Origin: Pseudomonadota bacterium
Lineage (GTDB): Bacteria; Pseudomonadota; Alphaproteobacteria; SHVP01
Direction: 5' to 3'
Length of the DNA stretch: 56,678 bases
NCBI GenBank assembly: GCA_022566715.1
Contig: JADFIH010000003.1
Span: 1-56,678 of the forward strand
Part shown: piece by piece, positions 18,379 through 44,111 of the stretch
Layout: every line of letters starts with the position of its first letter
Position numbering within the stretch: position 1 is the stretch's first letter
Program-made: the position numbers and the translations under genes
Notes under the pieces: model-generated
The model's database searches: none
What the model was told of the DNA's origin: nothing
The model's input: the letters and a program-made list of their open reading frames with translations, nothing else

Positions 18379-21054
18379 CTAGGCCAGGGTGAGGAGCGCG
18401 AGGGCGGTGGAGCCAGAGGTGAAGTTGAGCGTTTGCACTTGGTCGAAGGCGGCCTTATACGCCGCCAAACGTTGCAAGGTCAGTAACGATGCTTGGCCGG
18501 GATCGACGAAGTCCTTTTCCGGCCCCTCGATAAGAAACTTGTAGATCTTCTTGATCTCGCGCTGGGCGTTTTCGATGAGGACGAGGGCCTCGGAGGCCTT
18601 GCTTTCCGTCATGACGTTCATGCCGTTTGCGAATCCGAGTTCGTAGGGATTCGCCGAGGCGGAGGCCTCGTCGTCGTCGTCGCCCGGTTTGCCGAAAAGG
18701 ATGGTCTCGCTCAGGCCCAGGCCCGCGAGGGCATTGTAGCCGTCGCGTCCCGCGGTTATTTCGATCTTGTTTCCGTGCAAGGCCTCGATTGTCAGGAAGC
18801 GCCCCCGGATATCGTCGTCCACGAATTCCGCGGTCCCCATGACGCCGAGGGCCGCCCGCAACTTGAAGGACAGGATGCCGAAGCTATCGTCACGGTCGAT
18901 GGTGATCTTGGTGGCCGCCCCGCCGTTGACGGAAATGTAGAAGTACTGACCGTCGCGCACCGTCGTCGAGCTGGTGATCGAATCGGCATATTCCTGCGGG
19001 ACCTGCCCGCTGGATAAACCGAGCCGGCTCAGCACGCTGGTGCCGTTGGTATCGAAGGCGATGCCAAGGCCCGCCTGGTCGAAGGCGCCGCCGAACTGAT
19101 GGTTCCAAACCAGCGCGCCCGTGCTGTCAAATTTGGCGGCGAACCCATCGACCTTGCTCGAGCTGGTTTCGCCGGAGAGCGTGCCCGCGGTGCTGCCCGT
19201 GATATAGGCGTCATCGGTCGCCGTATCGATGGCGATCGCGTAGGCCTTATCGGCGGACGTGGTTCCGAAATAGGTGCCGAAGGTGAGGGTGCCCGCGGCG
19301 TTGTCCAGCTTGGCCATGAAAGCATCGACGTCGCCCGAGTGCGCGGCGACCGGGCTTCCGAACAGGCTCGCGTCGGAGGTGTAACCGGTGAAATAGACGT
19401 TGTTGGACGAATCGAGCGCGATGCCCGTGATGGCGCCGTCCGTGCCAAGCGAGCCGGTGTACTCCCAATCGGCGGTGCTGGCCGCGCTGTCGGCGTACTT
19501 GCGCACGAACAAGCTGCCGTCGTTCTCGCCGGCCACGTAGATGTTGCCCGCGGTATCGACGGTGATCGCGGTCACCTTCTCGTCGCCCGCTTCCGCGAAC
19601 TGCTTGTTGTAAACGAGGGTGCCGCTGGAATCGAGTTTGGTCACGTAGGCGTCGCTGCCGCCGCCATAAGTCTGATCCGAAGCGATCGCGCCATAAGCGA
19701 GGCCCGCGACAAAGATGTTATTACTGGAATCGATGGTGAGGGTGAGGCCCGCATCATTGGCGGAGGTCGCCGCCTGGCGCGTCCACAGCTCCTGACCCTT
19801 TTTATCGTATTGAGTCACGAAGGTGTCGTAGCCGCCGCCATAGCCGTCCGTGGTCAAAATTCCGCTGACCTGCCCGGCGATGATCACGTTGTCGTCGCTA
19901 TCTATCGCGATGGCGAAACCGCTGGCGTCGCCTTTCGCGCCGAGGCGCTGCGTGAACAGGAGATTCCCGACGGAGTCGTATTTGTTCAGGTAAACGTCGC
20001 TCGTCCCCTCCGTCGACAGATCACCAAGGTCGCCCGCGGTGCTGCCGACGACGTAGATGTTGCCCTCACTGTCCACGGCCGTTGCGGCCGCCTTGTCGAC
20101 CGCCTCAAGCGAATCGATGCCCTTGTAGAAGCCTTCGGTTGGGTCCGCCGTGGCGATATCGTCGAGCTTGGTGACGAAGGCGCCGCCGCTGTCGCCGGTG
20201 CCCCGGGTGCCGGTGATGTAGATGGCCTTCGCTTCGGTTGCCGCATCGGCGCTGAAGTTGACGGTTTCCCCATAACCGATTTCAATGCGGATGCCGTACT
20301 GGGTCTCGCTGGTGCGCTCGACGTTGAACGTCGTCGAGATGCCCGCCGAGAGCAATTGCGTGTTGACGTAATCGGTGATGTTGTCGAGGCTGAGTGTGCC
20401 CGAGACATCGGCGAGATCGATGTTGACGACGTTGTCGACGCCGCTCAGGGTGACCGTGATGGTGAATTTATCGCCGGATGCAACTCCCGCAATGGCGGTG
20501 GTGCGGGAGCTGCTCACGATGGTGCCGACATAACGCGGCGCGTTCTCGATTTGCGGGATTTTGACGGTCGATTCGATCTTGTCCTTGATGAGACCGGAGA
20601 CCAGATTGAATTTTTGAAAGGCTGAATCGCTCACGTAGTTTGAGACCGTCGAGATTTGACTCTGGAAGATCGCGTCTAGGATTCCCGACATGCCCCGGCC
20701 CTTGGTCGTTTGCGCGTACTCCGTGAGCTCCTTCATGCGGTCGAGCGCCTTGTACATGGCGAACAACTTCTTGATATCCTCCGACAAATTGTCGCGTTTG
20801 AAGAGGCGGTCCTTGGGATCGATCAAGAACTTCGAGGACAGCACCCGGTTGGCGAGTTCGTCGGCGGGCTTGAATGTCTCTCTTTTCCAAGGTGGCCGGG
20901 GGCCCGCTTTCCGGGCCGCGATAATGTCCTTCAGCACACCTTGCTTCAGGAATTCGGCGTGCAGCTTCGAGCCCAGCGAGGCTCCCGTCGAATAGTACGC
21001 GGACAGACCGGTGTAGTCGGCCTGGATTAAGGGAAAGGCGATATGGCTTACCAT
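18379..21054 (-). CDS. SBBP seven-bladed propeller protein with flagellar hook-IN-like flanks, probable flagellar regulon member
   Basis: The start is taken at the ATG with GGTGG six bases upstream (891 residues); an ATG two codons earlier is possible. Residues 1-190 are helical with no signal peptide. Residues 190-275 and about 665-760 resemble hook-IN segments of FlgK/FliD (for example SVNGGAATKITIDRDDS and NALAGLGLSETILFG). Between them lie seven SBBP repeats with signatures such as GNIYVVGSTAG, DAYVTKLDSSG and DGFAAKFDSTG, enough for one propeller. A sigma-54-type promoter and two palindromes like those at flagellin genes lie upstream. Export by the flagellar apparatus is an inference. 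I know no described protein of this architecture. Confidence 0.75.
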   Translation of the reverse strand: MVSHIAFPLIQADYTGLSAYYSTGASLGSKLHAEFLKQGVLKDIIAARKAGPRPPWKRETFKPADELANRVLSSKFLIDPKDRLFKRDNLSEDIKKLFAMYKALDRMKELTEYAQTTKGRGMSGILDAIFQSQISTVSNYVSDSAFQKFNLVSGLIKDKIESTVKIPQIENAPRYVGTIVSSSRTTAIAGVASGDKFTITVTLSGVDNVVNIDLADVSGTLSLDNITDYVNTQLLSAGISTTFNVERTSETQYGIRIEIGYGETVNFSADAATEAKAIYITGTRGTGDSGGAFVTKLDDIATADPTEGFYKGIDSLEAVDKAAATAVDSEGNIYVVGSTAGDLGDLSTEGTSDVYLNKYDSVGNLLFTQRLGAKGDASGFAIAIDSDDNVIIAGQVSGILTTDGYGGGYDTFVTQYDKKGQELWTRQAATSANDAGLTLTIDSSNNIFVAGLAYGAIASDQTYGGGSDAYVTKLDSSGTLVYNKQFAEAGDEKVTAITVDTAGNIYVAGENDGSLFVRKYADSAASTADWEYTGSLGTDGAITGIALDSSNNVYFTGYTSDASLFGSPVAAHSGDVDAFMAKLDNAAGTLTFGTYFGTTSADKAYAIAIDTATDDAYITGSTAGTLSGETSSSKVDGFAAKFDSTGALVWNHQFGGAFDQAGLGIAFDTNGTSVLSRLGLSSGQVPQEYADSITSSTTVRDGQYFYISVNGGAATKITIDRDDSFGILSFKLRAALGVMGTAEFVDDDIRGRFLTIEALHGNKIEITAGRDGYNALAGLGLSETILFGKPGDDDDEASASANPYELGFANGMNVMTESKASEALVLIENAQREIKKIYKFLIEGPEKDFVDPGQASLLTLQRLAAYKAAFDQVQTLNFTSGSTALALLTLA

Positions 21055-21114
21055 TTTCATCCACCACACGTACCAAAGACAAAGCGGCTCACGACCACGC
21101 GGTTCGGCGAACCC

Positions 21115-21141
21115 GGCAATTCTTGCCTGGCACACATTGCC
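21115..21141. promoter_or_regulatory. Two tandem ftr-like palindromes in the propeller gene leader
   Basis: GGCAATTCTTGCC (21115-21127) and GGCACACATTGCC (21129-21141) start 14 bp apart. The first is a perfect GGCAA-N3-TTGCC palindrome. They lie about 110-140 bp downstream of the predicted sigma-54 start. As far as I recall, Caulobacter FlbD sites can act from downstream in this way. Binding by an FlbD homologue is inferred. Confidence 0.65.
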
Positions 21142-21262
21142 TAGGAAAAAATTGCCTCGCCGGGTCACGGGTTACCGGCCCTTCCGCCGCCCCGCCTTTT
21201 GGGCGAAAACCGCGGAAAGCGGGCCTTTAACGGTTCCGTGGCCCTGGCCACAGGGAGGAAAT

Positions 21263-21278
21263 TGCAACAAGCAGGCCA
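21263..21278 (-). promoter_or_regulatory. Sigma-54-type promoter for the propeller gene
   Basis: The minus strand reads TGGCCTGCTTGTTGCA, with GG and GC separated by exactly 10 bases as required at -24/-12. The -12 half is canonical; the -24 half deviates from TGGCAC at two positions. The predicted start is near 21252, about 200 bp before the ATG. Confidence 0.6.
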
Positions 21279-21747: not shown

Positions 21748-23322
21748 GTGAGCGCCGCCCAGCCGCTGCGGCGGCGCACCACCGACCGGGCGACGCGCGC
21801 GCGCGACAAGGTCAAGCCGCTTCGCGAAGTCGCCGCGATCGCGAAACAGGCCCAAGAACAGGGGCGCACCGTCGTGCTGGCGCACGGCGTCTTCGATCTC
21901 GTCCACCTGGGTCACGTCCGCCACCTCGAGGCGGCCGAGAAGGAAGCCGATGTCCTGATCGTGTCGGTGACGCCCGACCGCTTCGTCAACAAGGGCCCGG
22001 GCCGCCCCGTCTTCGGCGAGCCATTGCGCGCCGAAATGCTGGCGGCGCTGGAATGCGTCGATTGGGTGACGATAAGCAATTGGCCGTCGGCCGAGGAACT
22101 CATCACCCTGATCAAACCGGACGTCTACATCAAGGGCTCGGACTATTCCAACGAGGGCGACGACATCACCGGCAAGATCGGCGCCGAACGCGCTGCCGTC
22201 GAACGTCATGGCGGCCGGGTCATCACCACCGAGGACATCACGTTTTCGTCCTCCGCCCTGATCAACCGCAACTTCAACGTCCTCGACCCGGAGGTCATGG
22301 AATACCTGGGCGGCCTGAACCAAGAACAGTTCCTGCGGACGGCATTGGAGGCCATCGACGGCATCGCCGATATGCGCGTCCTGCTGGTCGGCGAGACCAT
22401 CATCGACGAGTACCAGTACGCCAAACCGATGGGGAAGTCGGCCAAGGAAAACATCATCGCCAGCCGCTTTCAGGGCCGCGAGGTCTTCGCCGGCGGGGTG
22501 ATCGCGGCGGCCAATCACGTGGCCGATTTCTGCCGCGACGTCGGCGTAATCACCATCTTGGGCGAGCGCGATTCCTATCAGGATCTCATCCTCGACACGG
22601 TGCGTCCCAACGTCAAGGTGCATCCCCTGTTCAGGCGCGGCGTCCCGACCATCCGCAAATGCCGGTTCGTCGATCCCGGTCACATGCGCAAGATGTTCGA
22701 AGTCTACTTCTTCGAGGATGAGCCGATCAGCGGCAATCTGGAAAAACAATTGGCCGACATGATCGGCGACAAGGCGCGCGATTTCGACGTTGTCATCGTG
22801 ACCGACTTCGGCCACGGCATGATGACGGACAGGGCCATCCGCATGGTCACCGAGTCCGCCAAGTTCCTCGCCGTCAACGCCCAAAGCAACAGCGCGAATC
22901 TCGGTTACAACCTGATCACGCGGTATCCGCGGGCTGACTACGTCTGCATCGACGCGCCCGAGGCCCAGCTCGCCGTGGGCGACCGCTTCAGCGACATCGC
23001 CGACCTGATCGCCACCGATCTGCGCGCGGCCATCGACTGCCGCAACTTCGCCGTGACGCACGGCGAGCGGGGCTGCGTCGTCTATTCGCCATCGACCGGC
23101 GTTCGGCGCGTGCCTGCGTTTACCCGCCAAGTGGTGGACACGGTCGGCGCGGGGGATGCGTTCCTGGCGGTCACCTCGCCGATCGTCGCGGCGGGCACGA
23201 ACATGGAGGTCGCCGGATTCATCGGCAACGCCGTCGGCGCGCTGAAGGTCGGCATCGTCGGCCACCGCCAATCGGTCGAGAAGATTCCAGTCAAAAAGTA
23301 CATCACGACGCTTCTCAAGTAA
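21748..23322 (+). CDS. Bifunctional HldE-like protein with swapped order: nucleotidyltransferase then PfkB kinase
   Basis: The 524-residue product (GTG start after AGAGG) has a cytidylyltransferase-like domain at residues 30-180, with GVFDLVHLGHVRHLEAAEKE (HxGH nucleotide site) and DYSNEGDDITGK, and a PfkB sugar kinase domain at about 205-524 with FAGGVIAAANHVADF and DTVGAGDAFLAVTSP (catalytic Asp). HldE of E. coli makes ADP-heptose but has kinase first, transferase second. The reversed order and the downstream GmhA-like isomerase point to nucleotide activation of a heptose or similar sugar. It is the first gene of a long operon. Confidence 0.9.
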   Translation: MSAAQPLRRRTTDRATRARDKVKPLREVAAIAKQAQEQGRTVVLAHGVFDLVHLGHVRHLEAAEKEADVLIVSVTPDRFVNKGPGRPVFGEPLRAEMLAALECVDWVTISNWPSAEELITLIKPDVYIKGSDYSNEGDDITGKIGAERAAVERHGGRVITTEDITFSSSALINRNFNVLDPEVMEYLGGLNQEQFLRTALEAIDGIADMRVLLVGETIIDEYQYAKPMGKSAKENIIASRFQGREVFAGGVIAAANHVADFCRDVGVITILGERDSYQDLILDTVRPNVKVHPLFRRGVPTIRKCRFVDPGHMRKMFEVYFFEDEPISGNLEKQLADMIGDKARDFDVVIVTDFGHGMMTDRAIRMVTESAKFLAVNAQSNSANLGYNLITRYPRADYVCIDAPEAQLAVGDRFSDIADLIATDLRAAIDCRNFAVTHGERGCVVYSPSTGVRRVPAFTRQVVDTVGAGDAFLAVTSPIVAAGTNMEVAGFIGNAVGALKVGIVGHRQSVEKIPVKKYITTLLK

Positions 23323-23343
23323 CCGCTATAAGGCATTGGTGAT

Positions 23344-23958
23344 ATGAGAAAAATTATCGACGAATACTTCGAGACCCTGGGCGCGCTTCCGGCCCGGCTG
23401 GAATCGACCGACCGGGTCGGGCGTTCCCTGCCCATCGAGCGGGTTTTCGAGCAAGTGATTGCACTGGCGCGCCAGGCCCACGACGGCGGCTACAAACTGA
23501 TGTTCATCGGCAACGGCGGCAGCTCGACGATCGCCAGTCACATGGCCGAGGATTTCTCCAAGGCGGCGAACATCCGCGCCATCGCCTTCAACGATCCGGC
23601 ATTTCTGACCTGCTTGGGCAACGACCTCGGTTTCGATCAGATTTTTTCCAAGCAGATCGAGCTCTTCGCCAAGGCGGGCGACGTGCTGGTGGCGATCTCG
23701 AGCTCCGGCAACTCGCAAAACATTCTCAACGGCGTGCTGGCGGCGCGCGAGAAGGGCTGCACGGTCGTCACCCTGAGCGGCTTCGGCCCGGACAACAGCC
23801 TGCGCGGCCAGGGCGACTACAACATCTATGTGCCGAACAGCGAGTACGGCTTCGTCGAGATCACGCACTCCGCCATTTGCCATGCGATCCTCGATATCGC
23901 CATGGGGTGGCGGGGCGGCGAGCAGGAGGCGCCGGGTCCCCGCGCGGTCTCCGCATGA
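23344..23958 (+). CDS. SIS-domain phosphoheptose isomerase (GmhA-like)
   Basis: The 204-residue protein has the SIS signature FIGNGGSSTIASHMAEDFSK (about 53-72), GNDLGFDQIFSKQIELFA and the phosphate-binding SSSGNSQNIL, all typical of GmhA, which turns sedoheptulose 7-phosphate into a heptose 7-phosphate. It begins 21 bp after the HldE-like gene and overlaps the next start by ATGA. The pairing supports a heptose pathway. Related SIS isomerases with other sugar phosphates cannot be excluded. Confidence 0.88.
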   Translation: MRKIIDEYFETLGALPARLESTDRVGRSLPIERVFEQVIALARQAHDGGYKLMFIGNGGSSTIASHMAEDFSKAANIRAIAFNDPAFLTCLGNDLGFDQIFSKQIELFAKAGDVLVAISSSGNSQNILNGVLAAREKGCTVVTLSGFGPDNSLRGQGDYNIYVPNSEYGFVEITHSAICHAILDIAMGWRGGEQEAPGPRAVSA

Positions 23959-24962
23959 GCGCCGAAACGCGAAAGTGGCACGTCCTCGTCACCGGCGGCG
24001 CGGGCTATGTGGGCAGCGCGCTGGTGCCCAAGCTGATCGAGGCCGGGCATCAGGTGACCGTGCTCGACCTCTATCTGTTCGGGGACCATATTTTCGAGAG
24101 CCTAGGCGCCAATGGATGCTTGCGCGAGGTCAAGGGCGACCTGCGCGATCCGGCGATGGTCGAAAGCGCGCTGACGGGCTGCGACGCCGTGATCCATCTC
24201 GCCTGCATCTCGAATGATCCGAGTTTCGAGCTCAACCCGGCCCTCGGGAAATCGATCAACTACGACTCCTTCCGGCCCCTGGTGCGGGCGGCCAAGCGGG
24301 CAGGGGTCCGGCGCTTCATCTACGCCTCGTCGTCGAGCGTCTACGGCATCAAGGACGACCCCGAGGTTACCGAGGATCTCCCGTTGGACCCCCTCACGGA
24401 CTATTCCAAGTACAAGGCGATGTGCGAGAAGGTGCTGGCCGAGGAGCGCGAGCCCGGCTTCGTGACCCTGACCATCCGGCCCGCCACCGTGTGCGGCTAC
24501 GCCAAGCGCCTGCGCCTCGACCTGACCGTCAACATCCTCACCAACCACGCCGTCAACAACGGCCGCATCACCGTCTTCGGGGGCAGCCAGAAGCGGCCCA
24601 ACCTCAACATCGAGGACATGACCGACCTGTACGTCCAGTGCCTCCAGTACCCGAACGAGCTGATCGACGGCAAAACCTACAACGCCGGCTATGAAAACCA
24701 CGCGGTCGCGGACATCGCCGAGATGGTGCGCGGCGCCGTCGGCAACGGCGTCGAGGTGGTGACCGAGTCCACCGACGATCTGCGCTCCTATCACGTCTCG
24801 TCGGCGCTCATCAAAAAGGAACTCGGCTTCGTGCCGGTGCATACCATCGGCGACGCCGTCACCAGCCTGGTCGAGGCCTTCCGCGCCGGCAAGGTGCCCA
24901 ACCCCATGACGGACAAGGCCTACTACAACATCAAGACCATGCAGGCCCTCGATCTCAAGTAG
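23955..24962 (+). CDS. NAD-dependent sugar epimerase/dehydratase (extended SDR)
   Basis: The 335-residue protein carries the Rossmann motif VTGGAGYVGSALVPKL, the serine cluster IYASSSSVYGI and the catalytic YSKYK, followed by TIRPATVCGYAKRLR, characteristic of extended SDR enzymes on nucleotide sugars. The start overlaps the isomerase stop (ATGA). In this operon it probably remodels the nucleotide-activated sugar made by the first two genes. Stereochemistry and substrate cannot be inferred. Confidence 0.9.
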   Translation: MSAETRKWHVLVTGGAGYVGSALVPKLIEAGHQVTVLDLYLFGDHIFESLGANGCLREVKGDLRDPAMVESALTGCDAVIHLACISNDPSFELNPALGKSINYDSFRPLVRAAKRAGVRRFIYASSSSVYGIKDDPEVTEDLPLDPLTDYSKYKAMCEKVLAEEREPGFVTLTIRPATVCGYAKRLRLDLTVNILTNHAVNNGRITVFGGSQKRPNLNIEDMTDLYVQCLQYPNELIDGKTYNAGYENHAVADIAEMVRGAVGNGVEVVTESTDDLRSYHVSSALIKKELGFVPVHTIGDAVTSLVEAFRAGKVPNPMTDKAYYNIKTMQALDLK

Positions 24963-25034
24963 GACGGGCCCGTTAACACTCTGTCAACCAACAGTTAATA
25001 GCTTCGGTGCGGAATGGGGCAGAGACCGTAGCGA

Positions 25035-25667
25035 ATGCGCATCGGCGTTGATTTCGACAATACGATCGCCAAGTACGATCGCCTTTTCGCGGCCCTTGCG
25101 GTCGAGGGCGGGCTGCTGCCTTGCGCGCCGGAAGGCGGGAAGACGGCCGTGCGCGACGCGGTGCGGGCCCTGCCCAACGGCGACGAGGAATGGCAACATC
25201 TTCAGGCCAAGGCGTATGGCGCGCGCATGGCCGAAGCCGATCTTTCCGCCGGCTTCAGCCGCTTCGTGGCCCGCTGCCGGGCCAGGGGACTGCCCCTGTT
25301 CATCGTCAGTCACAAATCGGCCCGCTCGCAGATCGAACCCACCGGGCCGGGCCTGCGCGCGGCGGCACTGGCCTGGATGGAAAGCAAAGCCTTCTTCGAC
25401 CCAAGCTATTTCGGCTTCGACCGCGAGGCGGTCTATTTCGAAGACACCCGGGCCCAGAAAATCTCCCGAATCCGCGACCTCCACTGCACCCATTTCATCG
25501 ACGATCTGGTGGAGGTGTTCGAGGAGCCGGACTTCCCGGACGATGTGCTTGGCCTTCTTTTAACCTCTCGGGACGATGGCGCCGATCCGGCCAACGTCGT
25601 CCGTTGCAAGTGCTGGAATGATGTCACGCTCCAACTTCTCGAACCTTTGGCCGGGCATGCTGCCTAA
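25035..25667 (+). CDS. HAD-superfamily phosphatase-like protein
   Basis: The 210-residue protein opens with RIGVDFDNTIAKYD, the HAD motif I with its nucleophilic Asp and acid Asp at +2 (DxD), followed by FIVSHKS (motif II), a lysine near 146 and THFIDDLVEVF (motif IV). It is likely a sugar-phosphate phosphatase supplying the operon, the role GmhB plays in heptose synthesis, though it is not an obvious GmhB. A 72-bp gap with a near CtrA-like site (24973-24988) separates it from the epimerase. It overlaps the next gene by 11 bp. Confidence 0.78.
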   Translation: MRIGVDFDNTIAKYDRLFAALAVEGGLLPCAPEGGKTAVRDAVRALPNGDEEWQHLQAKAYGARMAEADLSAGFSRFVARCRARGLPLFIVSHKSARSQIEPTGPGLRAAALAWMESKAFFDPSYFGFDREAVYFEDTRAQKISRIRDLHCTHFIDDLVEVFEEPDFPDDVLGLLLTSRDDGADPANVVRCKCWNDVTLQLLEPLAGHAA

Positions 25668-27544: not shown

Positions 27545-27546
27545 CC

Positions 27547-28479: not shown

Positions 28480-28486
28480 ACCGGGC

Positions 28487-29302: not shown

Positions 29303-29306
29303 CCGG

Positions 29307-29720: not shown

Positions 29721-29724
29721 GCCC

Positions 29725-31091: not shown

Positions 31092-31982
31092 GTGCCCCTG
31101 CCCGGGAGCGTCCTGGTCGTTGGCGCCGACGGCCTGATCGGGGCCGCGTTGGTTCGCCGCCTAAGCCGCGGCGGTTCGCGCGTTCTTTCGACCAGCCGCC
31201 GCGCCGCGTCCCATGCCACGTTTCAGGTGGACCTCGCGGCGCCCGGCGCATGGCCCGCCCTGCCCAAGGTCGATGCGGCCGTCCTGTGCGCGGGCAATAC
31301 CTCGATCAGCGCCTGCGCGGAGAACCCCGCCGCCAGCGCCGCCGTTAACGTGACCGGTCTGTCGGCGCTCGCCGACCGGCTGGCGGCGCAAGCGGACATG
31401 GTGCTGCTGCTTTCCAGCAACCAGGTTTTCGACGGCGGCGTCCCCCGGCGCGGCCGCGCGGACGGGACCTGTCCCGTTTGCCAATATGGCCGCCAGAAGG
31501 CCGCCGCCGAGGCCCATGTTCTTGGTTTGAGGGGCGGCGCGGTGCTGCGGCTGACCAAGGTTTTGACGCCGGATCTTGCGCTGCTTACCGGCTGGTGCGC
31601 GGACCTCGCGGCGGGCCGGCCGGTGACCCCCTTCGACAACTTTCCCCTGGCGCCGGTGACGCTGGACTTCGCCGTCGATACTATCGTCGACATACTTTCG
31701 CGGGGCCAGCCCGGCGTTTACCAGGCCTCGGGCGCGGATGATCTCACCTACGCCGACCTTGCGCGCGCCCTGGCCGGGCATGTAGGCGCCGACCCCGGAC
31801 TGGTCACTCCGGTGCAAGCAGTCGCGGCCGGGCTCGGCTTCGAGCGGCTGCCCCGCTATTCTACTCTCGAGATGGAGCTGGAGGAGGCGCGGTTCGGGCG
31901 GGCCGCGCCGGCGTCAGACAGCGTCCTTGAGGAGGTGATCCGGCCGATCGTCCTCACGGGCCGCGCCGTGGCGCACGGGTAG
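31092..31982 (+). CDS. RmlD-like sugar-nucleotide reductase (extended SDR)
   Basis: The 296-residue protein starts with a GTG behind AAGGAG. It has VLVVGADGLIGAALVRRLS (glycine-rich NAD(P) loop), AAVLCAGNT, LLSSNQVFDGGVP and a catalytic YGRQKAAAEAHVL (YxxxK), as in dTDP-4-dehydrorhamnose reductase. It is the last gene of the carbohydrate operon, and its final 69 bases overlap the end of the convergent O-GlcNAc-transferase-like gene. Confidence 0.85.
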   Translation: MPLPGSVLVVGADGLIGAALVRRLSRGGSRVLSTSRRAASHATFQVDLAAPGAWPALPKVDAAVLCAGNTSISACAENPAASAAVNVTGLSALADRLAAQADMVLLLSSNQVFDGGVPRRGRADGTCPVCQYGRQKAAAEAHVLGLRGGAVLRLTKVLTPDLALLTGWCADLAAGRPVTPFDNFPLAPVTLDFAVDTIVDILSRGQPGVYQASGADDLTYADLARALAGHVGADPGLVTPVQAVAAGLGFERLPRYSTLEMELEEARFGRAAPASDSVLEEVIRPIVLTGRAVAHG

Positions 31983-34904
31983 CGCCGGCACCTCGATCGT
32001 GCGCGGCGGGTTCCCCGCGAGATAGTTTTCCATCATCAGCTCGAAACCCGATTCGAGATGGCCGGTTAAACGCCCAATATCGAACAGCGGATGAGTGTCG
32101 CGGTTGGCCTGCAGCTTGGCCTTGAGCGCGGCGAGCTCGGCGGGATTTCGGGCCAGCGAAAGCGCTTTCGATTCGTATTCGGTCATGGAATAGGTGGTGA
32201 GCTCGGGCGCGCCGATGGCGCTGACCAGACTTGCGCCGTTGCGCGCGGGCGGCGCATCACCCCAGAGAGTTAGGACCGGCACCCCCACCCACAGGGCGTC
32301 CGTCGTCGTCACGCCGCCGCCGTGGAAAAGATTGTCCAGGCAGAGATCCACGTGGTGAATCCGCGCCAAGTGATTCGGGTGGAGGATCGTGTTCGCGAAA
32401 CACAAGCGTGCGGGATCGACGCCACGCTTCTTGGCTTCCAAACGGAGGTTCTTGCGGCTTGTCTTGGTACCGCCCATGAACCAAATGAGACTGCCCGGAA
32501 CCTGACGCAGAAGGCGCATCCAGATGTCGAACATCGTCGGATAGAACTTGTAGTGCGAATTGAAGTTTGCAAAGACAAAACCCTCTTCCGGCAAGCCCGC
32601 TTCCACGCGGCTTACCGGCTCGGCGATATGCTCGTGCTGCGAGGTCGCCATGAAGGTGTCGGGAAGGTAGACGAGCTTTTCCGAACAGTACTTTTGGTCT
32701 TCGGGCGGTAACTGGATCTTGTCGGTAATGAGGTAATCGATGTAATCCGCTCCGGTCGTTGAGGAAAAGCCCAGCCAATGCGCTTGAATGGGGGCGGGCC
32801 TAAACGCAAATACTTCATACCGGCCCCCACGCGTGTGGCCCGCCAGATCGACCAAGATGTCGACGCCGTTCCCGTGGATCGTGTCCGCGGCTTTCGTATG
32901 GGTCATGTTGGTGATGTCGATATATTTGTCGAAAGTGGCCTGGAAAAAACTGGTCAGGCCGTCCTCGCCGTAGGTCGTAATGGCGTAGGCCTGGTATTCA
33001 AACCTATCGGTGTTCCGTGCCCCGAGCACCGACTTGAACGCGACCGCGACGCTGTGGAAACGGAAGTCCGGGGACATGAAGCCGACCGTGATTTTTTTCC
33101 CGCGCCGCCGCCGAAATTTGTAGGGTGGCCGTGCTTTCTTCTGCTCCTCGACCTTTTCTTGGGCGCGCTTCGAAATCTGACGCGCGGCGCCGAGCTTTAG
33201 CTCCGGAGTCGCCGGGAGACTTTGAAGACCAAAGGCCGAAACGGCGACTTCCTCGCCGCGGATAACCTGCAACTCCGCGTTGGTGAGGACCTTGCTGATG
33301 ATTGCGTCAAGGTTTGTCCAACTGCACTGTTGCATCAATCCGTGCGCCAAGTAGGGATAGACCACGTCGTAGTGTTCCCTCTGGGAGAGCGCCTTTTTGA
33401 ACACCACGACCGATTCGTCGAACCGGCTCATGAGTTGGAGCAACGTGCCCAGGTTAAAATACACCTCGGTCAACTCAGGGTGGTTGTCCAGAATATCCTG
33501 ATAGGCCTTGATCGCCTTGGCATGCTGACCGGTGTCCTGGTAGGAGATGGCGAGGTTGTTCAGCGCATGCGCGTAGTGCGGCTTGATCTCCACGGCCTTC
33601 TCAAAGGCGTCGATGGCCTTTTCATGCTCGTTGTAGGCTTGGTAGGACAGGCCGATTCCGTTGTATGCCGAATAAAGCGCGGGATTTTTCTGCAGCGCCT
33701 TTTCGAACCACTGCAATGCTTCGTCGAGCCGGTCCATGGCGCGCAAGACGTTGCCAAGGTTGATCATCGCGACGTCGAGTTTCGGGTCGATCTCGGCCGC
33801 CCGCCGATATGCGTCGAGGGCCTCTTCTTGTTTTTTTAAAGCGGCATAGGAGTTTCCCAGGTTGTTCCAGGCATGGGCGGATTCCGGATTGACCTCGATG
33901 GCCTTGTTCAGGGCCTCGATTGCCTCGTCTTGCCGGTCGAGGCTTTGCAGTGCGTTTCCAAGGTTGTTGTAGGCCTCGGAAATATCGCCATGCAGCGTCA
34001 GCGCGTGCTCGAAGTGGGTTATGGCCTGTTCTGCTTCCTTCTTGGCGAGGCACAGGTTTCCGTAGTGAAACGCCACTTCCACGTCATCCGGACGCAATTC
34101 CTTGCAGCGCGCGAGGCGTTCCTCGGCTTCCTCGTACTCCCCGGTTCCGGTGAGCAGCCGGGCCAGGTGGGTCAGGGCCCCGAAGTGGTCAGGATCGAGG
34201 GCAACGACCTTCCGGAAATGATCTATCGCCTCGTCCTGCTTTGCGAGCTTTTCCAGAACGGTGCCAAAGTTACAGTGGACAGCGGCATTGTTGGGATCGA
34301 TGGAAATGGAGTGGCGGTAACTTTCGGCCGCGCCCTTGTAGTCCCCGTTGTTGAAGAGCACGCCCGCCAGGTTGTCGTGGACCTGGGCGCTTCGAGGATC
34401 GTGCTCTGCCGCGGTCGTAAAGGCCGCAACGGCGTCGGCCGTCCGGTCAAGGCCCGCAAGCGCGGCACCCAGGGCCGAATGGGCATGAGCAATCCGTGGG
34501 TTGATGTCGACGCCGCGGGATAGGGACTCAACGGCCTTCTCAAGTTCCCCCTTCGAGAGGTAAAGATTGCCAAGATTGACGTGCGCTTCGGCCAGCCGAG
34601 GGTCCAGGTCCAGTGCTGCCCGGTAGTAGTCCACCGCCTCCTCGAGGCGATTCTGGGTCTGCATGAGATTGCCCAGGTTCGAACGAACCGCAGCATCGGC
34701 GGGCTCGAGTTCGGCCGAACGCTTATAGTATTGCTCCGCTTCCTCGAACCGTTCCTGAGCGGCGACGAGGGCGCCCAGGTTCAGGAGTGCGCTGGTGTCT
34801 TCGGGAGCCGCCTTAAGGACCGCCAAGTAAGTCTTCTCGGCTTCGTCCGCCCGGCCCGCACGATGGTGTTGAAGCGCGAGCGCCAGGGAGTCGGTGGCGC
34901 GCAT
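31914..34904 (-). CDS. TPR protein with O-GlcNAc transferase (SPINDLY/GT41) C-terminal domain
   Basis: The 996-residue protein has about 14-15 tetratricopeptide repeats in residues 1-510 (for example NLGNLYLSKGELEKAVESL, NNLGNALQSLDRQDEAIEAL), then a GT41 catalytic region from about 590 with GFMSPDFRFHSVAVAFKSVL, VDLAGHTRGGRYEVFAFRPA, LGFSSTTGADYIDYLITD and LFHGGGVTTTDALWVGVPVL. Such enzymes put sugars on Ser/Thr of proteins. It sits next to the flagellin locus and converges on the carbohydrate operon, so flagellin is a natural candidate substrate. It has no signal peptide and should act in the cytoplasm. Confidence 0.92.
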   Translation of the reverse strand: MRATDSLALALQHHRAGRADEAEKTYLAVLKAAPEDTSALLNLGALVAAQERFEEAEQYYKRSAELEPADAAVRSNLGNLMQTQNRLEEAVDYYRAALDLDPRLAEAHVNLGNLYLSKGELEKAVESLSRGVDINPRIAHAHSALGAALAGLDRTADAVAAFTTAAEHDPRSAQVHDNLAGVLFNNGDYKGAAESYRHSISIDPNNAAVHCNFGTVLEKLAKQDEAIDHFRKVVALDPDHFGALTHLARLLTGTGEYEEAEERLARCKELRPDDVEVAFHYGNLCLAKKEAEQAITHFEHALTLHGDISEAYNNLGNALQSLDRQDEAIEALNKAIEVNPESAHAWNNLGNSYAALKKQEEALDAYRRAAEIDPKLDVAMINLGNVLRAMDRLDEALQWFEKALQKNPALYSAYNGIGLSYQAYNEHEKAIDAFEKAVEIKPHYAHALNNLAISYQDTGQHAKAIKAYQDILDNHPELTEVYFNLGTLLQLMSRFDESVVVFKKALSQREHYDVVYPYLAHGLMQQCSWTNLDAIISKVLTNAELQVIRGEEVAVSAFGLQSLPATPELKLGAARQISKRAQEKVEEQKKARPPYKFRRRRGKKITVGFMSPDFRFHSVAVAFKSVLGARNTDRFEYQAYAITTYGEDGLTSFFQATFDKYIDITNMTHTKAADTIHGNGVDILVDLAGHTRGGRYEVFAFRPAPIQAHWLGFSSTTGADYIDYLITDKIQLPPEDQKYCSEKLVYLPDTFMATSQHEHIAEPVSRVEAGLPEEGFVFANFNSHYKFYPTMFDIWMRLLRQVPGSLIWFMGGTKTSRKNLRLEAKKRGVDPARLCFANTILHPNHLARIHHVDLCLDNLFHGGGVTTTDALWVGVPVLTLWGDAPPARNGASLVSAIGAPELTTYSMTEYESKALSLARNPAELAALKAKLQANRDTHPLFDIGRLTGHLESGFELMMENYLAGNPPRTIEVPALPVRHGAAREDDRPDHLLKDAV

Positions 34905-35203: not shown

Positions 35204-36019
35204 ATGGTTTTGTCAGTTAACACAAATGTCGGGGCGATGGTGGCCCTGCAGAATCTCAACATCACGAATAAATTGCTGGAGAAAACCCAGCTCAGGATTA
35301 CCACAGGCCTGAAAATCAACGGGCCCAAGGACGACGCGGCGACTTATGCCATCGCGCAAAACATGCGTGGCGATATCGGGTCGTTCCGGGCCGTGAGAAT
35401 CGCTTTGTCGGCGGGTGAGTCCACGGTCAACGTGGCGATCAGCGCCGCCAAGTCCATTTCCGACCTGATGATCGAGATGAAGGCCAAGGTGGTGCAGTCC
35501 AACCAGGCAGGTCTCGACAGCCAGTCGCGGACCGCGTTGCACAACGACTTCAAAGCGTTACGGGACCAGATCGACACGATTGTCCAGACCGCCAAGTTCA
35601 ACGGCAAGAATCTCATCGAGATCAGCGCCACCAACATGACGGTTCTGAGCACGGTCGACGGCAGCACGATTACCGTCAGTGCACAGAGTATGGATACCAC
35701 GACGCTCGCCATCAACACGTCGATTTTGACGAGCAGTTCGGGCGCCGCGAGCGCGCTGACCGCGATCAATACGGCCATGACGCTTGTCACCGACAAGCTC
35801 GCGGCTCTTGGTTCTTCGGCCAAGCGTATCGAAGTTCAGTCCGACTTCACCGTCAAGCTGGTGGACATCCTCAGGGCAGGCGTGGGCAACCTCGTCGATG
35901 CGGACTTGGCGGAAGAGAGCGCTAGTTTGCAGGCCTTGCAGATCAAGCAGCAGCTTGGCATTCAGGCGCTGGCCATCGCCAACTCGGGCCCGCAGAATAT
36001 TCTCGCGCTCTTCCAATAG
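35204..36019 (+). CDS. Flagellin (short, 271 aa), copy 1
   Basis: It has the conserved flagellin N-terminus (SVNTNVGAMVALQNLN, then QLRITTGLKINGPKDDAATY) and C-terminus (LVDADLAEESASLQALQIKQ, ending ILALFQ). Only about 100 residues separate the D0/D1 ends, so the exposed D2/D3 region is minimal, as in other short alphaproteobacterial flagellins. The central block VLSTVDGSTITVSAQ is Ser/Thr-rich, offering O-glycosylation sites. A strong GAGGAG precedes the ATG. The gene has its own sigma-54 promoter and is followed by flbT and flaF. Confidence 0.95.
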   Translation: MVLSVNTNVGAMVALQNLNITNKLLEKTQLRITTGLKINGPKDDAATYAIAQNMRGDIGSFRAVRIALSAGESTVNVAISAAKSISDLMIEMKAKVVQSNQAGLDSQSRTALHNDFKALRDQIDTIVQTAKFNGKNLIEISATNMTVLSTVDGSTITVSAQSMDTTTLAINTSILTSSSGAASALTAINTAMTLVTDKLAALGSSAKRIEVQSDFTVKLVDILRAGVGNLVDADLAEESASLQALQIKQQLGIQALAIANSGPQNILALFQ

Positions 36020-36033
36020 TCTCGAGATAGGAG

Positions 36034-36055
36034 TGGGGCCAGGTAACTGGCCCCA
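36034..36055 (+). other. Hairpin over the flbT translation start region
   Basis: TGGGGCCAG-GTAA-CTGGCCCCA forms a perfect 9-bp stem with a tetraloop. It ends 8 bases before the flbT ATG, and no free Shine-Dalgarno is visible between. It has no T-run. It may limit flbT translation or protect the flagellin mRNA end; both are inferences. Confidence 0.6.
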
Positions 36056-36063
36056 TAAGACCA

Positions 36064-36456
36064 ATGCCATTGAAAGTAACTTTGAAGCCCCGCGAAAGGT
36101 TCGTCCTGAATGGCGGCGTCTTGGTGAACGGCAACCGGCGTACCGATCTCATCATCGAGAATCAGGTGTCCCTTCTTCGCGAGCGCGACATCCTGCATCC
36201 CGACGAGGCCAATACGCCCGTTCGCCGCATCTACTTCGCCATCATGATGATGTACCTGGAAGAGGCGCTCGAAAGCCCGTTCTACCAGGAGTTCGTCGAC
36301 CGCATCACCGAATTCATGTGCGTCGTTACAAGTAAGGAAATACTCGGCAAGTGCCACCAGATCTTGGACGACGTTCATGAGCAGCGGTTCTATTCGGCCC
36401 TCATGACGTGCAAAACGCTTCTGCCCTTTGAAAAAGAGAGGTTGGAAAATGTCTGA
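36064..36456 (+). CDS. flbT: Flagellin translation regulator FlbT, copy 1
   Basis: The 130-residue protein opens PLKVTLKPRERFVLNGGVLV, then NRRTDLIIENQVSLLRERD and PVRRIYFAIMMMYLEE, the FlbT family profile and usual length. In Caulobacter FlbT binds the flagellin mRNA leader and promotes its decay until the hook is complete. The gene follows flagellin 1 by 44 bp and overlaps flaF by 8 bp. It is clearly paralogous to the copy at 39233. Confidence 0.94.
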   Translation: MPLKVTLKPRERFVLNGGVLVNGNRRTDLIIENQVSLLRERDILHPDEANTPVRRIYFAIMMMYLEEALESPFYQEFVDRITEFMCVVTSKEILGKCHQILDDVHEQRFYSALMTCKTLLPFEKERLENV

Positions 36457-36781
36457 AGCAGCCGTCGCCATGCAGAGCGACCCCCGCGGCACGGAGTACA
36501 AAGTCTTCGATCGCGTCACCAAGGCCCTGTCGTCGTCCAAGGACAAAGCTCTGGACGACAAGGACTATCTGGAAGCCCTCGATACGAATCGCCGCCTGTG
36601 GCAGGCCCTCGAAGTCGATGTCTCCTCCACCGAAAACGTCCTCCCCGACCAGTTGAAAGCAAAGATCATTTCGCTGGCGATCTGGGTCGACAAGCACTCC
36701 GCCAAGGTGACCCGCGGCGAAGCCAAGCTCCAACCCCTGATCACGGTTAACCAAGCGATCATGGAGGGCCTCGCGGCCTAG
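36449..36781 (+). CDS. flaF: Flagellar regulator FlaF, copy 1
   Basis: The ATG at 36449 lies inside the end of flbT and is preceded by GAGAGG; the product is 110 residues. It has EYKVFDRVTKALSSSKD, NRRLWQALEVDV, KIISLAIWVDKHSAKV and PLITVNQAIMEGL, all family features. FlaF acts opposite to FlbT, being needed for flagellin synthesis and secretion in Caulobacter. A strong terminator follows 10 bp after the stop, ending the flagellin-flbT-flaF unit. Confidence 0.93.
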   Translation: MSEAAVAMQSDPRGTEYKVFDRVTKALSSSKDKALDDKDYLEALDTNRRLWQALEVDVSSTENVLPDQLKAKIISLAIWVDKHSAKVTRGEAKLQPLITVNQAIMEGLAA

Positions 36782-36791
36782 CCAAAGATCT

Positions 36792-36828
36792 GGTGGGGCC
36801 GGACGCTCTCCGGCCCCCCACCCTTTTT
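36792..36828 (+). terminator. Rho-independent terminator after flaF copy 1
   Basis: GGTGGGGCCGGA and TCCGGCCCCCCACC form a 12-bp stem with one bulge and a 5-base loop, followed by CTTTTTG. Confidence 0.88.
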
Positions 36829-36882
36829 GCCGCCAAACCGGCATCCTCATGGGGCATGCATCCTCATGGGAACGAAGTGCCC

Positions 36883-36913
36883 GGCAATTCTTGCCAGGCC
36901 GGCAAAATTTGCC
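36883..36913. promoter_or_regulatory. Two perfect ftr-like palindromes upstream of flaF copy 2
   Basis: GGCAATTCTTGCC (36883-36895) and GGCAAAATTTGCC (36901-36913) are both perfect GGCAA-N3-TTGCC palindromes. They lie 70-100 bp upstream of the sigma-54 promoter at 36980. The rest of the 368-bp gap (36782-37149) holds the terminator, this pair, the promoter and a possible leader ORF. Confidence 0.72.
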
Positions 36914-36979
36914 ATTTATTGTCTAAGATATAATTCCCAGGATACCCTGACGCCCACGGAGTCCGGGGCCACGCAGGTC

Positions 36980-36995
36980 CGGCATCCGGATTGCT
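36980..36995 (+). promoter_or_regulatory. Sigma-54-type promoter of flaF copy 2
   Basis: CGGCATCCGGATTGCT keeps GG and GC ten bases apart and a canonical TTGC. The predicted start is near 37006. An ATG at 37008 opens a 51-codon frame that runs into flaF. Confidence 0.68.
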
Positions 36996-37149
36996 TAGGG
37001 GGTTGCCATGACCAGTGGGCGCAGCCGGCACCGGCACTTAACCGTACCGAAAGCACTAATCGCGTACCGTTGGCTGGTTCGAAGGACGGCGGAATTGGGG
37101 TCGAAGGGCTGGGTGGCGCAAGCCTTCACCGGCCCGGCTGAAAGGTTTC

Positions 37150-37506
37150 ATGTCGGTTCATAAGTACAAGACCGCGCAAGCGACGACCGAGAATCCGCGT
37201 CAGACCGAATACCGTCTCTTCGCGGAGGTGACGAAGTCGCTGATATCCAACAAGGATAAGGAGCGCGTCGATCCGGAGTGCATCAAGGCGATCGACTGGA
37301 ACCGGCGGCTTTGGATCACCCTTCAGTCGGACCTGGCGGGAGAGGACAATGGTTATCCCGACGAGCTCAGGGCACAACTCATCTCCCTCGCCATCTGGGT
37401 CGACAAGCATTCCCGCAAAGCCATGCGTGGCGAAGCCCGATTGGCGCCGCTGATTTCGGTCAACCGCTCCATCATGGAAGGCTTGGTTAACGCCGGCAGG
37501 GCCTAG
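37150..37506 (+). CDS. flaF: Flagellar regulator FlaF, copy 2
   Basis: The 118-residue protein aligns with copy 1 throughout: EYRLFAEVTKSLISNKDK, WNRRLWITLQSDLAG, QLISLAIWVDKHSRKA and PLISVNRSIMEGLVNAG. A GAAAGG lies upstream of the ATG. Unlike copy 1 it precedes a flagellin gene and seems to have its own sigma-54 promoter. No flbT lies beside it; the matching flbT copy is 1.7 kb downstream behind another promoter. This allows separate control of FlaF and FlbT dosage. Confidence 0.92.
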   Translation: MSVHKYKTAQATTENPRQTEYRLFAEVTKSLISNKDKERVDPECIKAIDWNRRLWITLQSDLAGEDNGYPDELRAQLISLAIWVDKHSRKAMRGEARLAPLISVNRSIMEGLVNAGRA

Positions 37507-37620
37507 CATTTACGCCGCACGCGCCACGGCCGCGCGCCGGCATCACTTCACCACCATCATCGCAGCGTTCTTGATCGCGGACCATCACGCCGCCGCCACG
37601 CTCCCACCGGTGCGGCGCCC

Positions 37621-37707
37621 GGCAATTCCTTCCGGCAAGATTTGCCGAGTGGGCAATTTATGCCGCCCGCATCCTCCGGGTCGTCCCTAAAACCGGCAAG
37701 ATCTGCC
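37621..37707. promoter_or_regulatory. Cluster of four ftr-like palindromes upstream of flagellin 2
   Basis: Sites are GGCAATTCCTTCC (37621), GGCAAGATTTGCC (37634, perfect), GGCAATTTATGCC (37652) and GGCAAGATCTGCC (37695). The cluster ends 100 bp before the sigma-54 promoter at 37808. It is the densest group in the window. Confidence 0.7.
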
Positions 37708-37807
37708 CCCTCGCGTGCTCTCGTCTTGGCTTTTCCGTTCGCGAAAATACATCTAAAAATCAACTGACTAGCCGCGTCCTAGGAAAATTCTTCCAGGTTG
37801 GGCGCTG

Positions 37808-37823
37808 TGGCATAGGCATTGCT
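37808..37823 (+). promoter_or_regulatory. Sigma-54 promoter of flagellin 2
   Basis: TGGCATAGGCATTGCT has TGGCA at -24 and TTGCT at -12 with correct spacing. The predicted start is near 37834, giving an 80-base leader. Confidence 0.82.
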
Positions 37824-37851
37824 TTCCTGGTTGCCGGGCCTTGGCCCCTTT

Positions 37852-37883
37852 CCGGCAAAACGCCGGCGCCAGCATAACGCTGG
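37852..37883 (+). promoter_or_regulatory. Two small hairpins in the flagellin 2 mRNA leader
   Basis: CCGGC-AAAAC-GCCGG (37852-37866) and CCAGC-ATAAC-GCTGG (37869-37883) are perfect 5-bp hairpins with similar 5-base loops (AAAAC, ATAAC), 3 bases apart. They sit in the predicted leader, where FlbT is known to act on flagellin mRNA in Caulobacter. Recognition by FlbT is speculative. Confidence 0.5.
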
Positions 37884-37912
37884 ATTGAGTAACTTAGAAC
37901 GAGGAGTGAGTA

Positions 37913-38728
37913 ATGGGACTATCAGTTAATACAAATGTCGGCGCAATGGTCGCGCTGCGGAACCTCAACAAAACCCAAATGGCGCTGGAGCAGACCCAGC
38001 TTCGCATTACCACCGGCCTCAAGATCAACGGCCCGAAGGACGACGCGTCGACCTACGCCATCGCCCAGCGGATGCGCGGTGACATCGCCGGCATGAACGC
38101 CGTGAAGGTCGCTCTCGCTACGGGCGATTCGACGGTCAACACCGCGATCTCGGGCGGCAAGGCCATCGCCGACCTTCTGACGGAGATGAAAGCGAAGGTC
38201 GTGCAGGCCAACCAGGCCGGACTGGACAGCCAGTCGCGGACGGCTCTGCACAACGACTTCACGGCCCTGCGGGATCAGCTTACCACCATCGTTCAGACGG
38301 CCGAGTTCAACGCCACGAACTTGATCAAGATAAGCGCAACGACGCTTACGGTCTTGAGCACGGTCGACGGCAGCACGATTACCGTGTCCGCCCAGAAGAT
38401 GGATACCACGACGCTGGCCATCAACACGTCGATCCTGACGAGCAGTTCGGGCGCCTCCAGCGCGCTGACCGCGATCGACTCGGCCATCACGAAGGTGACC
38501 GACAAGCTTGCGGCCCTGGGTTCCGCGGCGAAGCAGATCGAGGTGCAGACCTCGTTCACCAGCACCCTGGTCGACATCTTGAAGCAAGGCGTGGGCAACC
38601 TGGTCGATGCCGATTTGGCGGAAGAGAGCGCCAATTTGCAGGCCTTGCAGATCAAGCAGCAGCTCGGCGTGAACTCGCTGGCCATCGCCAACGCCGGTCC
38701 GCAGTCTATCCTGGGTCTCTTCGGGTAA
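37913..38728 (+). CDS. Flagellin (short, 271 aa), copy 2
   Basis: It has the same length and ends as copy 1: SVNTNVGAMVALRNLN, QLRITTGLKINGPKDDAST and LVDADLAEESANLQALQIKQ, ending ILGLFG. The central block with VLSTVDGSTITVSAQKMDTT is almost identical to copy 1, and the DNA there (38346-38465 against 35641-35760) is much more alike than the flanks, which suggests recent gene conversion. The Shine-Dalgarno is GAGGAG. It has its own promoter and a strong terminator. Confidence 0.95.
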   Translation: MGLSVNTNVGAMVALRNLNKTQMALEQTQLRITTGLKINGPKDDASTYAIAQRMRGDIAGMNAVKVALATGDSTVNTAISGGKAIADLLTEMKAKVVQANQAGLDSQSRTALHNDFTALRDQLTTIVQTAEFNATNLIKISATTLTVLSTVDGSTITVSAQKMDTTTLAINTSILTSSSGASSALTAIDSAITKVTDKLAALGSAAKQIEVQTSFTSTLVDILKQGVGNLVDADLAEESANLQALQIKQQLGVNSLAIANAGPQSILGLFG

Positions 38729-38752
38729 GAGCAGCAGGGTTTCGGATAACTT

Positions 38753-38783
38753 GGGGCCGGGATTTTCCCGGCCCCTTCTTTTT
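38753..38783 (+). terminator. Rho-independent terminator of flagellin 2
   Basis: GGGGCCGGGA and TCCCGGCCCC form a 10-bp stem around TTT, followed by TTCTTTTT. Confidence 0.92.
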
Positions 38784-38814
38784 GCCACACCGCCGGCGCC
38801 GCAGAGCACTATCC

Positions 38815-38905
38815 GAAGTTGTTGAGCGGCTCACTTCAGTCACTTCGGATAAAATTGCTCTACCTTTCAAGATGCTAGAGCAGCGTTATCCGCTCGATGC
38901 CGCCT
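38815..38905. repeat. Dispersed palindromic element, copy A
   Basis: A first hairpin ATCCGAAGT...ACTTCGGAT is followed by AAAATTGCTCTACCTTTCAA and a second stem (GGATAA...GCTCTA with TAGAGC...TTATCC). The same order of parts recurs at 55608-55735, and the last part at 49553-49620. Confidence 0.7.
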
Positions 38906-39056
38906 GAACCGACGCTGCTCCAGGGCCCGCTACCGCGTGACGTCGTTACATCGAATGCAACGCGAAATTTAGAAAAATGCCGTGGTTGTCGCACGTGGAA
39001 CACCGTGCAAGCGCCCGTTAATACGGCGGTAACCGTGCAAGTCCAAGATGCTCGGG

Positions 39057-39072
39057 TGGCACAACTGTTGCG
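39057..39072 (+). promoter_or_regulatory. Sigma-54 promoter of leader ORF and flbT copy 2
   Basis: TGGCACAACTGTTGCG has a perfect TGGCAC -24 element and TTGC -12 element. The predicted start is near 39083, 64 bases before the leader ORF. Confidence 0.83.
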
Positions 39073-39146
39073 TCGAATCCAGAGCCGACAAAAGTCGACG
39101 TGAGACGAGGTAGCTGAGTCGACTTAGTAGAAGGAGACACGGCAAA

Positions 39147-39242
39147 ATGAATAGGAACCTATCGGCGGCCCGCGGGACGCCAGCCAAATCGCGTCAGGGA
39201 GCTGCGGCGGACGGGCCCGCGCAGGACGCATCATGGCTTTGA
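39147..39242 (+). CDS. 31-codon leader ORF overlapping flbT copy 2
   Basis: The ATG follows AAGGAGACACGGCAAA, the best Shine-Dalgarno in this area, and the frame ends at 39242, ten bases inside flbT. flbT itself lacks a clear Shine-Dalgarno. The peptide begins MNRNLSAARG and ends QDASWL; it is Ala/Arg/Gly-rich and resembles nothing I know. The arrangement suggests translational coupling: ribosomes finishing the leader would re-initiate at flbT. Confidence 0.55.
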   Translation: MNRNLSAARGTPAKSRQGAAADGPAQDASWL

Positions 39243-39667
39243 AGCTCACTCTCAAACCGGGCGAGAAATTCGTCGTGAACGGCGCCGTGATCGTCAACGG
39301 GGACCGCCGTGGCCACTTGCTCATCCAGAACAACGTCAGCGTTTTGCGCGAAAAGGACGTGATGCAGCAGGTGGATGCAAATACACCCGTCAAGCGCATC
39401 TACTTCGCGATCCAGGTCCTCTACCTCGATGAGAGCTCCCGGCCGCAGTACTACGCTGACTTTGCCGACCGGTTGCAGGAGTTCATGGGGGTGATCAGAG
39501 ATCCCGGCATTCTCGACAAATGCGCGTCAATTCTCGAAGACGTAAACGGGGGACGCTATTACCGCGCCCTATTGACCGCCAAGAAAATGTTTCCCTTCGA
39601 GCGCGAGAGGCTGAACTACGGCATGGCCCATGAGGAGGAAGGCGCGGATTTAGGAATGAGTTCTTGA
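39233..39667 (+). CDS. flbT: Flagellin translation regulator FlbT, copy 2
   Basis: The 144-residue protein parallels copy 1: ALKLTLKPGEKFVVNGAVIV, DRRGHLLIQNNVSVLREKD, PVKRIYFAIQVLYLDE and AKKMFPFERERL. It has an extra acidic tail (HEEEGADLGMSS). Its translation appears coupled to the upstream leader ORF. It is expressed from its own sigma-54 promoter, apart from flagellin 2, and may run on into the FlaG-like gene. Confidence 0.94.
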   Translation: MALKLTLKPGEKFVVNGAVIVNGDRRGHLLIQNNVSVLREKDVMQQVDANTPVKRIYFAIQVLYLDESSRPQYYADFADRLQEFMGVIRDPGILDKCASILEDVNGGRYYRALLTAKKMFPFERERLNYGMAHEEEGADLGMSS

Positions 39668-41755: not shown

Positions 41756-41801
41756 GATGCACAATGCTCGGTGGTTTCAATGGATACTTGTCTGATTAGA
41801 C

Positions 41802-43939: not shown

Positions 43940-43991
43940 CATATTGCTCCAGGCGCGCGGTTTTTCCGCGCAGTAGGTCTGCAAGGGGCAT

Positions 43992-44007
43992 AGCGAACAT
44001 CGTGCCA
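43992..44007 (-). promoter_or_regulatory. Sigma-54-type promoter of flgI-flgJ-flgN
   Basis: The minus strand reads TGGCACGATGTTCGCT: a perfect TGGCACG -24 element and correct spacing, with TCGC instead of TTGC at -12. The predicted start is near 43982, about 42 bases before the ATG. Confidence 0.68.
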
Positions 44008-44111
44008 ACGAGGGCCATTCCTAACTACTTGAAATAAAAAGAAAAATATGGTTCTGGGCAATCCGGACCCGAGCCCGGGCCGGCGCCCGGGGCAAGCAGT
44101 GCAGGGTTTTC

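Follow-up and report, generated by a model that had tools for sequence, protein, structure and literature searches.

What does a beta-propeller protein do among flagellar genes? In a stretch of 56,678 nucleotides from an alphaproteobacterial genome (the window hereafter), a gene near two flagellin groups encodes an 891-residue protein with SBBP repeats. A preliminary description, made from the DNA letters, had placed it, by appearance, in the flagellar regulon, as a protein of an architecture not known from any described flagellar protein, and had suggested an adhesin or a sheath component exported by the flagellar type III system. The features on which our own reading rests are collected in Table 1.

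Table 1. Parts of the 891-residue protein, its promoter region and the neighbouring genes in the window
Feature	Position	Strand	Basis
Probable FlaEY-family protein, 891 aa, cysteine-free	18379..21054	-	ORF list, profile matches, alignment, cysteine count
C-terminal helices (residues 817-843, 857-875) and conserved end	18382..18684	-	model, alignment
Second hook-IN-like domain, residues 662-790	18685..19071	-	hhalign, Flagellin_IN in relatives, kinship to first flank
Seven-bladed SBBP beta-propeller, residues 275-672	19039..20232	-	Pfam SBBP, model, CylK match
First FliD/hook-IN-like domain, residues 175-285	20200..20532	-	hhalign, shuffles, Foldseek (residues 85-290)
N-terminal region, residues 1-174	20532..21054	-	alignment and AlphaFold model
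Palindrome AGGCAAGAATTGCCG, candidate FlbD (ftr-like) site downstream of promoter	21114..21128	-	pattern search
Sigma-54 promoter-like site TGGCCTGCTTGTTGCA	21263..21278	-	motif score; kept in near relatives
HldE-like cytidylyltransferase/PfkB kinase, divergent from the gene	21748..23322	+	profile matches
TPR glycosyltransferase (family 41), FlmG-like	31914..34904	-	profile matches
Two flagellin groups	35204..39667	+	profile matches
Flagellins in the two groups	35204-36019, 37913-38728	+	profile matches
FlbT in the two groups	36064-36456, 39233-39667	+	profile matches
FlaF in the two groups	36428-36781, 37150-37506	+	profile matches
FlgI, divergent from FliX	42752-44008	-	
FliX, divergent from FlgI	44261-44671	+	

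The reading frame runs on the minus strand from an ATG at 21054 to a stop at 18379, is open upstream as far as a GTG at 21168 and has a GC3 of 0.81, as in a coding frame; it is a real gene because full-length relatives exist at 47-48% identity. An AlphaFold model built on a 35-row alignment (mean pLDDT 75.7) shows a propeller whose seven blades, counted from the strand list, are closed by pairing the last with the first (strands 275-313 and 664-672). The SBBP family (PF06739) matches the protein at E 4.9e-18 in 6 stretches, with 65.2 bits against a curated cut-off of 20.5, and in a Pfam scan up to E 10 nothing else passes. The SBBP repeats read earlier from the sequence are borne out by both profile and model, and their number, seven, by the model. 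In the model, helices lie at both ends of the protein. The N-terminal region holds a conserved PPW motif (residues 54-56) and helices at 92-116 and 123-143, and its first 29 residues have the very low model confidence of a disordered start. Flagellin-type proteins also have helices at both ends and a disordered start.

The closest solved structure to the propeller is that of CylK, a Friedel-Crafts alkylating enzyme with an SBBP-type seven-bladed propeller of the same kind (E 4e-41 by sequence, best stretch residues 302-460; Foldseek E 2.9e-21 and 27% identity along about 405 columns, which corresponds to the extent of the propeller). Outside the propeller no CylK homology was found, nor was CylK found to resemble the flanks, and a CylK-like enzyme was dropped as a reading because the match lies in the propeller part. 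Leptospira LipL53-type proteins (NF047494) also have the SBBP propeller in common with ours but are lipoproteins, and the window protein reaches 125.7 bits against their NCBIfam cut-off of 400. In the literature we found no paper tying SBBP proteins to flagella in this sense. Could the gene, then, encode an ordinary secreted SBBP propeller or an enzyme like CylK, non-flagellar and in a flagellar region by chance? The nearness of its propeller to CylK would fit, yet that nearness covers one part of the protein, flagellar neighbours repeat in distant lineages and the promoter elements are flagellar. Moreover, each of the 23 genomes with a full-length gene encodes FliF (21 genomes) or flagellins (the other two). 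A chance location is therefore highly improbable in our estimate.

The promoter ties the gene to its neighbours. Read from 21278 to 21263, TGGCCTGCTTGTTGCA scores 16.1 bits, the second-best sigma-54 site in the whole window; the best one and most of those ranked next precede flagellins, FlaF and FlgI. In a look across the family, only near relatives (L027-L031) and L044 have the site as well, and Caulobacteraceae copies do not, so the promoter type is no family trait. Downstream of the sigma-54 site, AGGCAAGAATTGCCG is the same element as CGGCAAGATTTGCCG ahead of the second flagellin. The palindrome CGGCAAGAWTTGCCG occurs, at up to 2 mismatches, at 8 places in the 56.7 kb, all of them flagellar promoters: those of flagellin, FlaF and FlgI genes and, once, the leader of the 891-residue gene. 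For Caulobacter flagellar genes, ftr (FlbD) sites downstream of sigma-54 promoters are on record in a title cited in PMC3096577, and in Caulobacteraceae the flaY promoter is bound by GcrA (PMC3667746). The sigma-54-type promoter proposed in the preliminary description thus stands. Its palindromes of the flagellin-gene type stand in part: AGGCAAGAATTGCCG is common to flagellin promoters, whereas the TTCGAA-type palindromes farther upstream of the gene were not found in flagellin regions.

Besides the genes in Table 1, FlgA lies in the window, and FliF and RpoN are encoded in the genome. Fragments of the gene, and nothing longer, occur in two genomes (G239, locus L049; G027, locus L050), both without a FliF or flagellin match, as expected of a decaying gene left behind after loss of the flagellum. 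Membership of the gene in the flagellar regulon, as claimed at the outset, is well supported: the promoter agrees with it, as do the palindrome in common with other flagellar genes, the neighbouring genes, the joint occurrence with flagella and these remnants.

The neighbourhood has further features of its own. The two complete flagellin-FlbT-FlaF groups adjoin on one strand, in partly rearranged order, as if duplicated (35204-39667). Directly past the second flagellin stands a hairpin with 10-bp arms, GGGGCCGGGATTTTCCCGGCCCC (38753-38775), a likely terminator. A sigma-70-like factor with regions 2 and 4 (40946-41764) lies between the flagellin groups and FlgI. Divergent from our gene, sugar enzymes (HldE-like, SIS, epimerase and a split transketolase) extend over 21748-31090. 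A relative of the HldE-like protein lies near the gene in 11 loci, the window included, and relatives of several of these enzymes recur near flaEY elsewhere, perhaps as a pathway for a flagellin or surface sugar.

Which family does the protein belong to? Of 289 alphaproteobacterial genomes, 23, as counted from the match table, contain full-length homologues whose parts are arranged alike, and in a phylum sample of 399 genomes full-length members were found only in Alphaproteobacteria. A scan of the genome contigs with the single protein found no relatives, and a search within the family to which G039 belongs added none. Family matches are present in 56 of 60 Caulobacteraceae genomes, nearly all of them long; named records from Brevundimonas, Phenylobacterium and two Caulobacter strains identified these genomes as Caulobacteraceae. 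The Caulobacteraceae copies share the length and architecture of the window copy, from which they differ in lacking its sigma-54 site and in sequence (26-32% identity along the length). A 22-row alignment of the family was too diverse for patterns; the Caulobacteraceae alignment was usable.

Gene order gives the family its name. In Caulobacter sp. 17J80-11, CCUG 60055 and three Phenylobacterium (L150, L154, L159, L162 and L164), the gene comes after FlbT, FlaF and a tandem array of three flagellins, and in four of these five loci an FlmG-like match precedes FlbT. For C. crescentus, Minnich et al. reportedly placed three flagellin genes in tandem within the flaEY cluster in 1988. The Erythrobacter aureus copy sits beside fliG, fliH, fliF, fliN, a sigma-54 activator and flhA, which agrees with the FlaEY described from inside the Sphingomonas flagellar cluster (PMC8921679). 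On the strength of these positions, and of full-length homology with the Caulobacter-group members, we file the gene as most likely a FlaEY-family member. Contrary to the preliminary description, then, the protein is not a new one: it most likely belongs to the FlaEY family of Caulobacter and sphingomonads. That family is known as a 'regulatory protein', and what is new is the role proposed here, that of an exported flagellar part.

The regions on either side of the propeller point to this role. With hhalign, the C flank matched a hook-IN reference at 76% (score 33.5) and the N flank at 67% (score 30.7), the reference being six segments of which four come from proteins that also match FliD_N; the two flanks matched each other at 67%. 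In 200 column shuffles per pair the top score was 16.0 for the flanks against hook-IN and 17.4 over all pairs; the helices and the propeller of the protein, set against hook-IN, scored 10-13, which is background. Flagellin_IN is the commonest Pfam family among C-flank members (6 of 23, best E 0.0033) and is matched by 2 of 23 N-flank members. The window protein alone has no Pfam match to hook-IN; the support comes from family alignments. Thus, the 891-residue protein is an SBBP propeller set between two mutually related domains, and the hook-IN likeness suspected in the flanks is found in both of them by profile, above all shuffles, and in the N flank also by fold.

By fold, what the N flank resembles is the filament cap. 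In a separate model of residues 85-290 the hook-IN region has pLDDT mostly above 90, and a Foldseek search of the whole PDB with this model placed FliD or FliD-cap complexes at all ranks from 1 to 26 (best E 9.9e-5, probability 1.00 for most). The match concerns one flank, the N-terminal one, over about 105-115 columns with TM-scores of 0.2-0.35, and ranks 1-26 hold no FlgK, no FlgL and no flagellin on its own. FliD_N (PF02465) and FliD_C do not match the protein up to E 10 in Pfam, and therefore it is not FliD by sequence. FliD (HAP2) and the FlaEY-family protein are alike in a D2/D3-type domain, in two hook-IN-like domains, in helices at the ends and in having few cysteines or none. They differ in that the window protein has about double the length of many FliD proteins and carries the seven-bladed propeller between its hook-IN domains. 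The nested order of helices, hook-IN, propeller, hook-IN and helices is the one that an axial protein should have if its ends come together on folding and its middle points outward.

Cysteine content agrees with this picture. Of 84 family members 82 are cysteine-free and two have one cysteine each; with neighbouring proteins as the yardstick, 7.9 would be expected to be cysteine-free. Cysteine is absent from the window flagellins, and the counts in four FliD proteins are 2, 0, 0 and 0. By eye, no signal peptide is seen in the N-termini of the aligned family members, as had been noted for the window copy. Together with the FliD-like domain, these features point indirectly to export by the flagellar apparatus.

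In textbooks the filament is capped by FliD. In our sample FliD_N is present in 57 of 289 genomes, and it was never found together with the FlaEY-family gene. Among the 170 flagellated genomes, FliD_N occurs in none of the 23 with the gene and in 57 of the 147 others (P 6e-5, ancestry ignored); by GTDB family, before genome G602 was added, the counts were 0 of 14 and 43 of 94 (P 7e-4, ancestry likewise ignored). The C. vibrioides control genome also has no FliD_N match. GTDB family f13 has three sampled genomes with FliD and without a match to the FlaEY-like gene. G602, of the same family, has a FlaEY-like gene, and the 1.92 Mb (about 74%) of it that were searched held flagellins, FliF, FliG, FlhA, FlbT, FlaF, FlgI and FlgA and no FliD. 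With G602 added, the zero overlap by GTDB family is therefore gone, and the exclusion at the level of genomes stands within the 74% searched. In addition, FliD and a FlaEY-like gene are both missing from 90 flagellated alphaproteobacterial genomes, so that lacking FliD does not entail having FlaEY. A further solution to capping may exist in these 90.

Where on the flagellum would such a protein sit? Hook-IN domains are present in several axial proteins and beta-propellers often bind ligands or glycans; since hook-IN domains are not peculiar to FliD, the protein might instead serve where hook and filament join or on the outside of the filament. An exported axial protein of that kind, an adhesin, a sheath component or a glycan-binding propeller instead of a cap, would also suit the flagellin-glycosylation-type gene set that adjoins the gene. 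This alternative, however, accounts neither for the Foldseek ranking, with FliD alone at the top, nor for the mutual exclusion with FliD, and we consider it unlikely. The adhesin or sheath suggested in the preliminary description is not favoured: it is FliD, the cap, that the fold resembles, and in our sample the family occurs only in genomes where FliD was not found.

The literature has given FlaEY another function altogether. FlaE and FlaY of C. crescentus act in trans on the expression of flagellin and chemotaxis genes, according to the summary in PMC8921679 of Minnich 1988, and the same paper relates that a mutant of the homologue FlaQ in Sphingomonas S2M10 alters fliC and flgI expression; flaY is also listed as a putative flagellar regulator (PMC3667746). 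Old genetics and the database name would thus place FlaEY in the cytoplasm, as a regulator acting in trans on the expression of flagellin genes, where here we read it as axial. Against this, Pfam and NCBIfam show no DNA- or RNA-binding domain in the protein, and its FliD-like domain, hook-IN flanks and cysteine-free composition are marks of an exported axial protein. Defects in flagellar assembly can by themselves feed back on flagellin genes. A cytoplasmic regulator seems rather improbable to us, and the published effect on flagellin expression could be indirect if FlaEY is axial.

On balance, and with a confidence just better than even, we favour the window protein as a FlaEY-family axial component of the flagellum, made under sigma-54 and probably FlbD control, exported by the type III apparatus and acting most likely as filament cap or tip chaperone. 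A more specific proposal, advanced tentatively and rated somewhat short of even, is that FlaEY caps the filament in Caulobacter-type flagella as a strongly remodelled or non-orthologous FliD, with a seven-bladed propeller inserted into its hook-IN head, and that it replaced FliD across several alphaproteobacterial lineages. We envision that the gene would be expressed together with the flagellins under sigma-54 and probably FlbD, and that the protein would pass unfolded through the flagellar type III apparatus. Its terminal helices would then sit in the filament or junction and its two FliD-like hook-IN domains make up a head, with the seven-bladed propeller farthest out. Such a protein would most likely act, in these bacteria without FliD, as filament cap or tip chaperone, and the published change in flagellin expression would result from faulty assembly.

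Rhizobiaceae have been reported to lack FliD (PMC6913195), and in the FlmG paper (PMC7591256) flagellin assembly is drawn with an unknown assembly factor, 'X'. Should FlaEY prove to cap the filament in one large group without FliD, a long-used developmental model would gain the tip protein that it lacks, and an old 'regulator' of no known mechanism would turn out to be a structural component, the loss of which acts back on flagellin genes.
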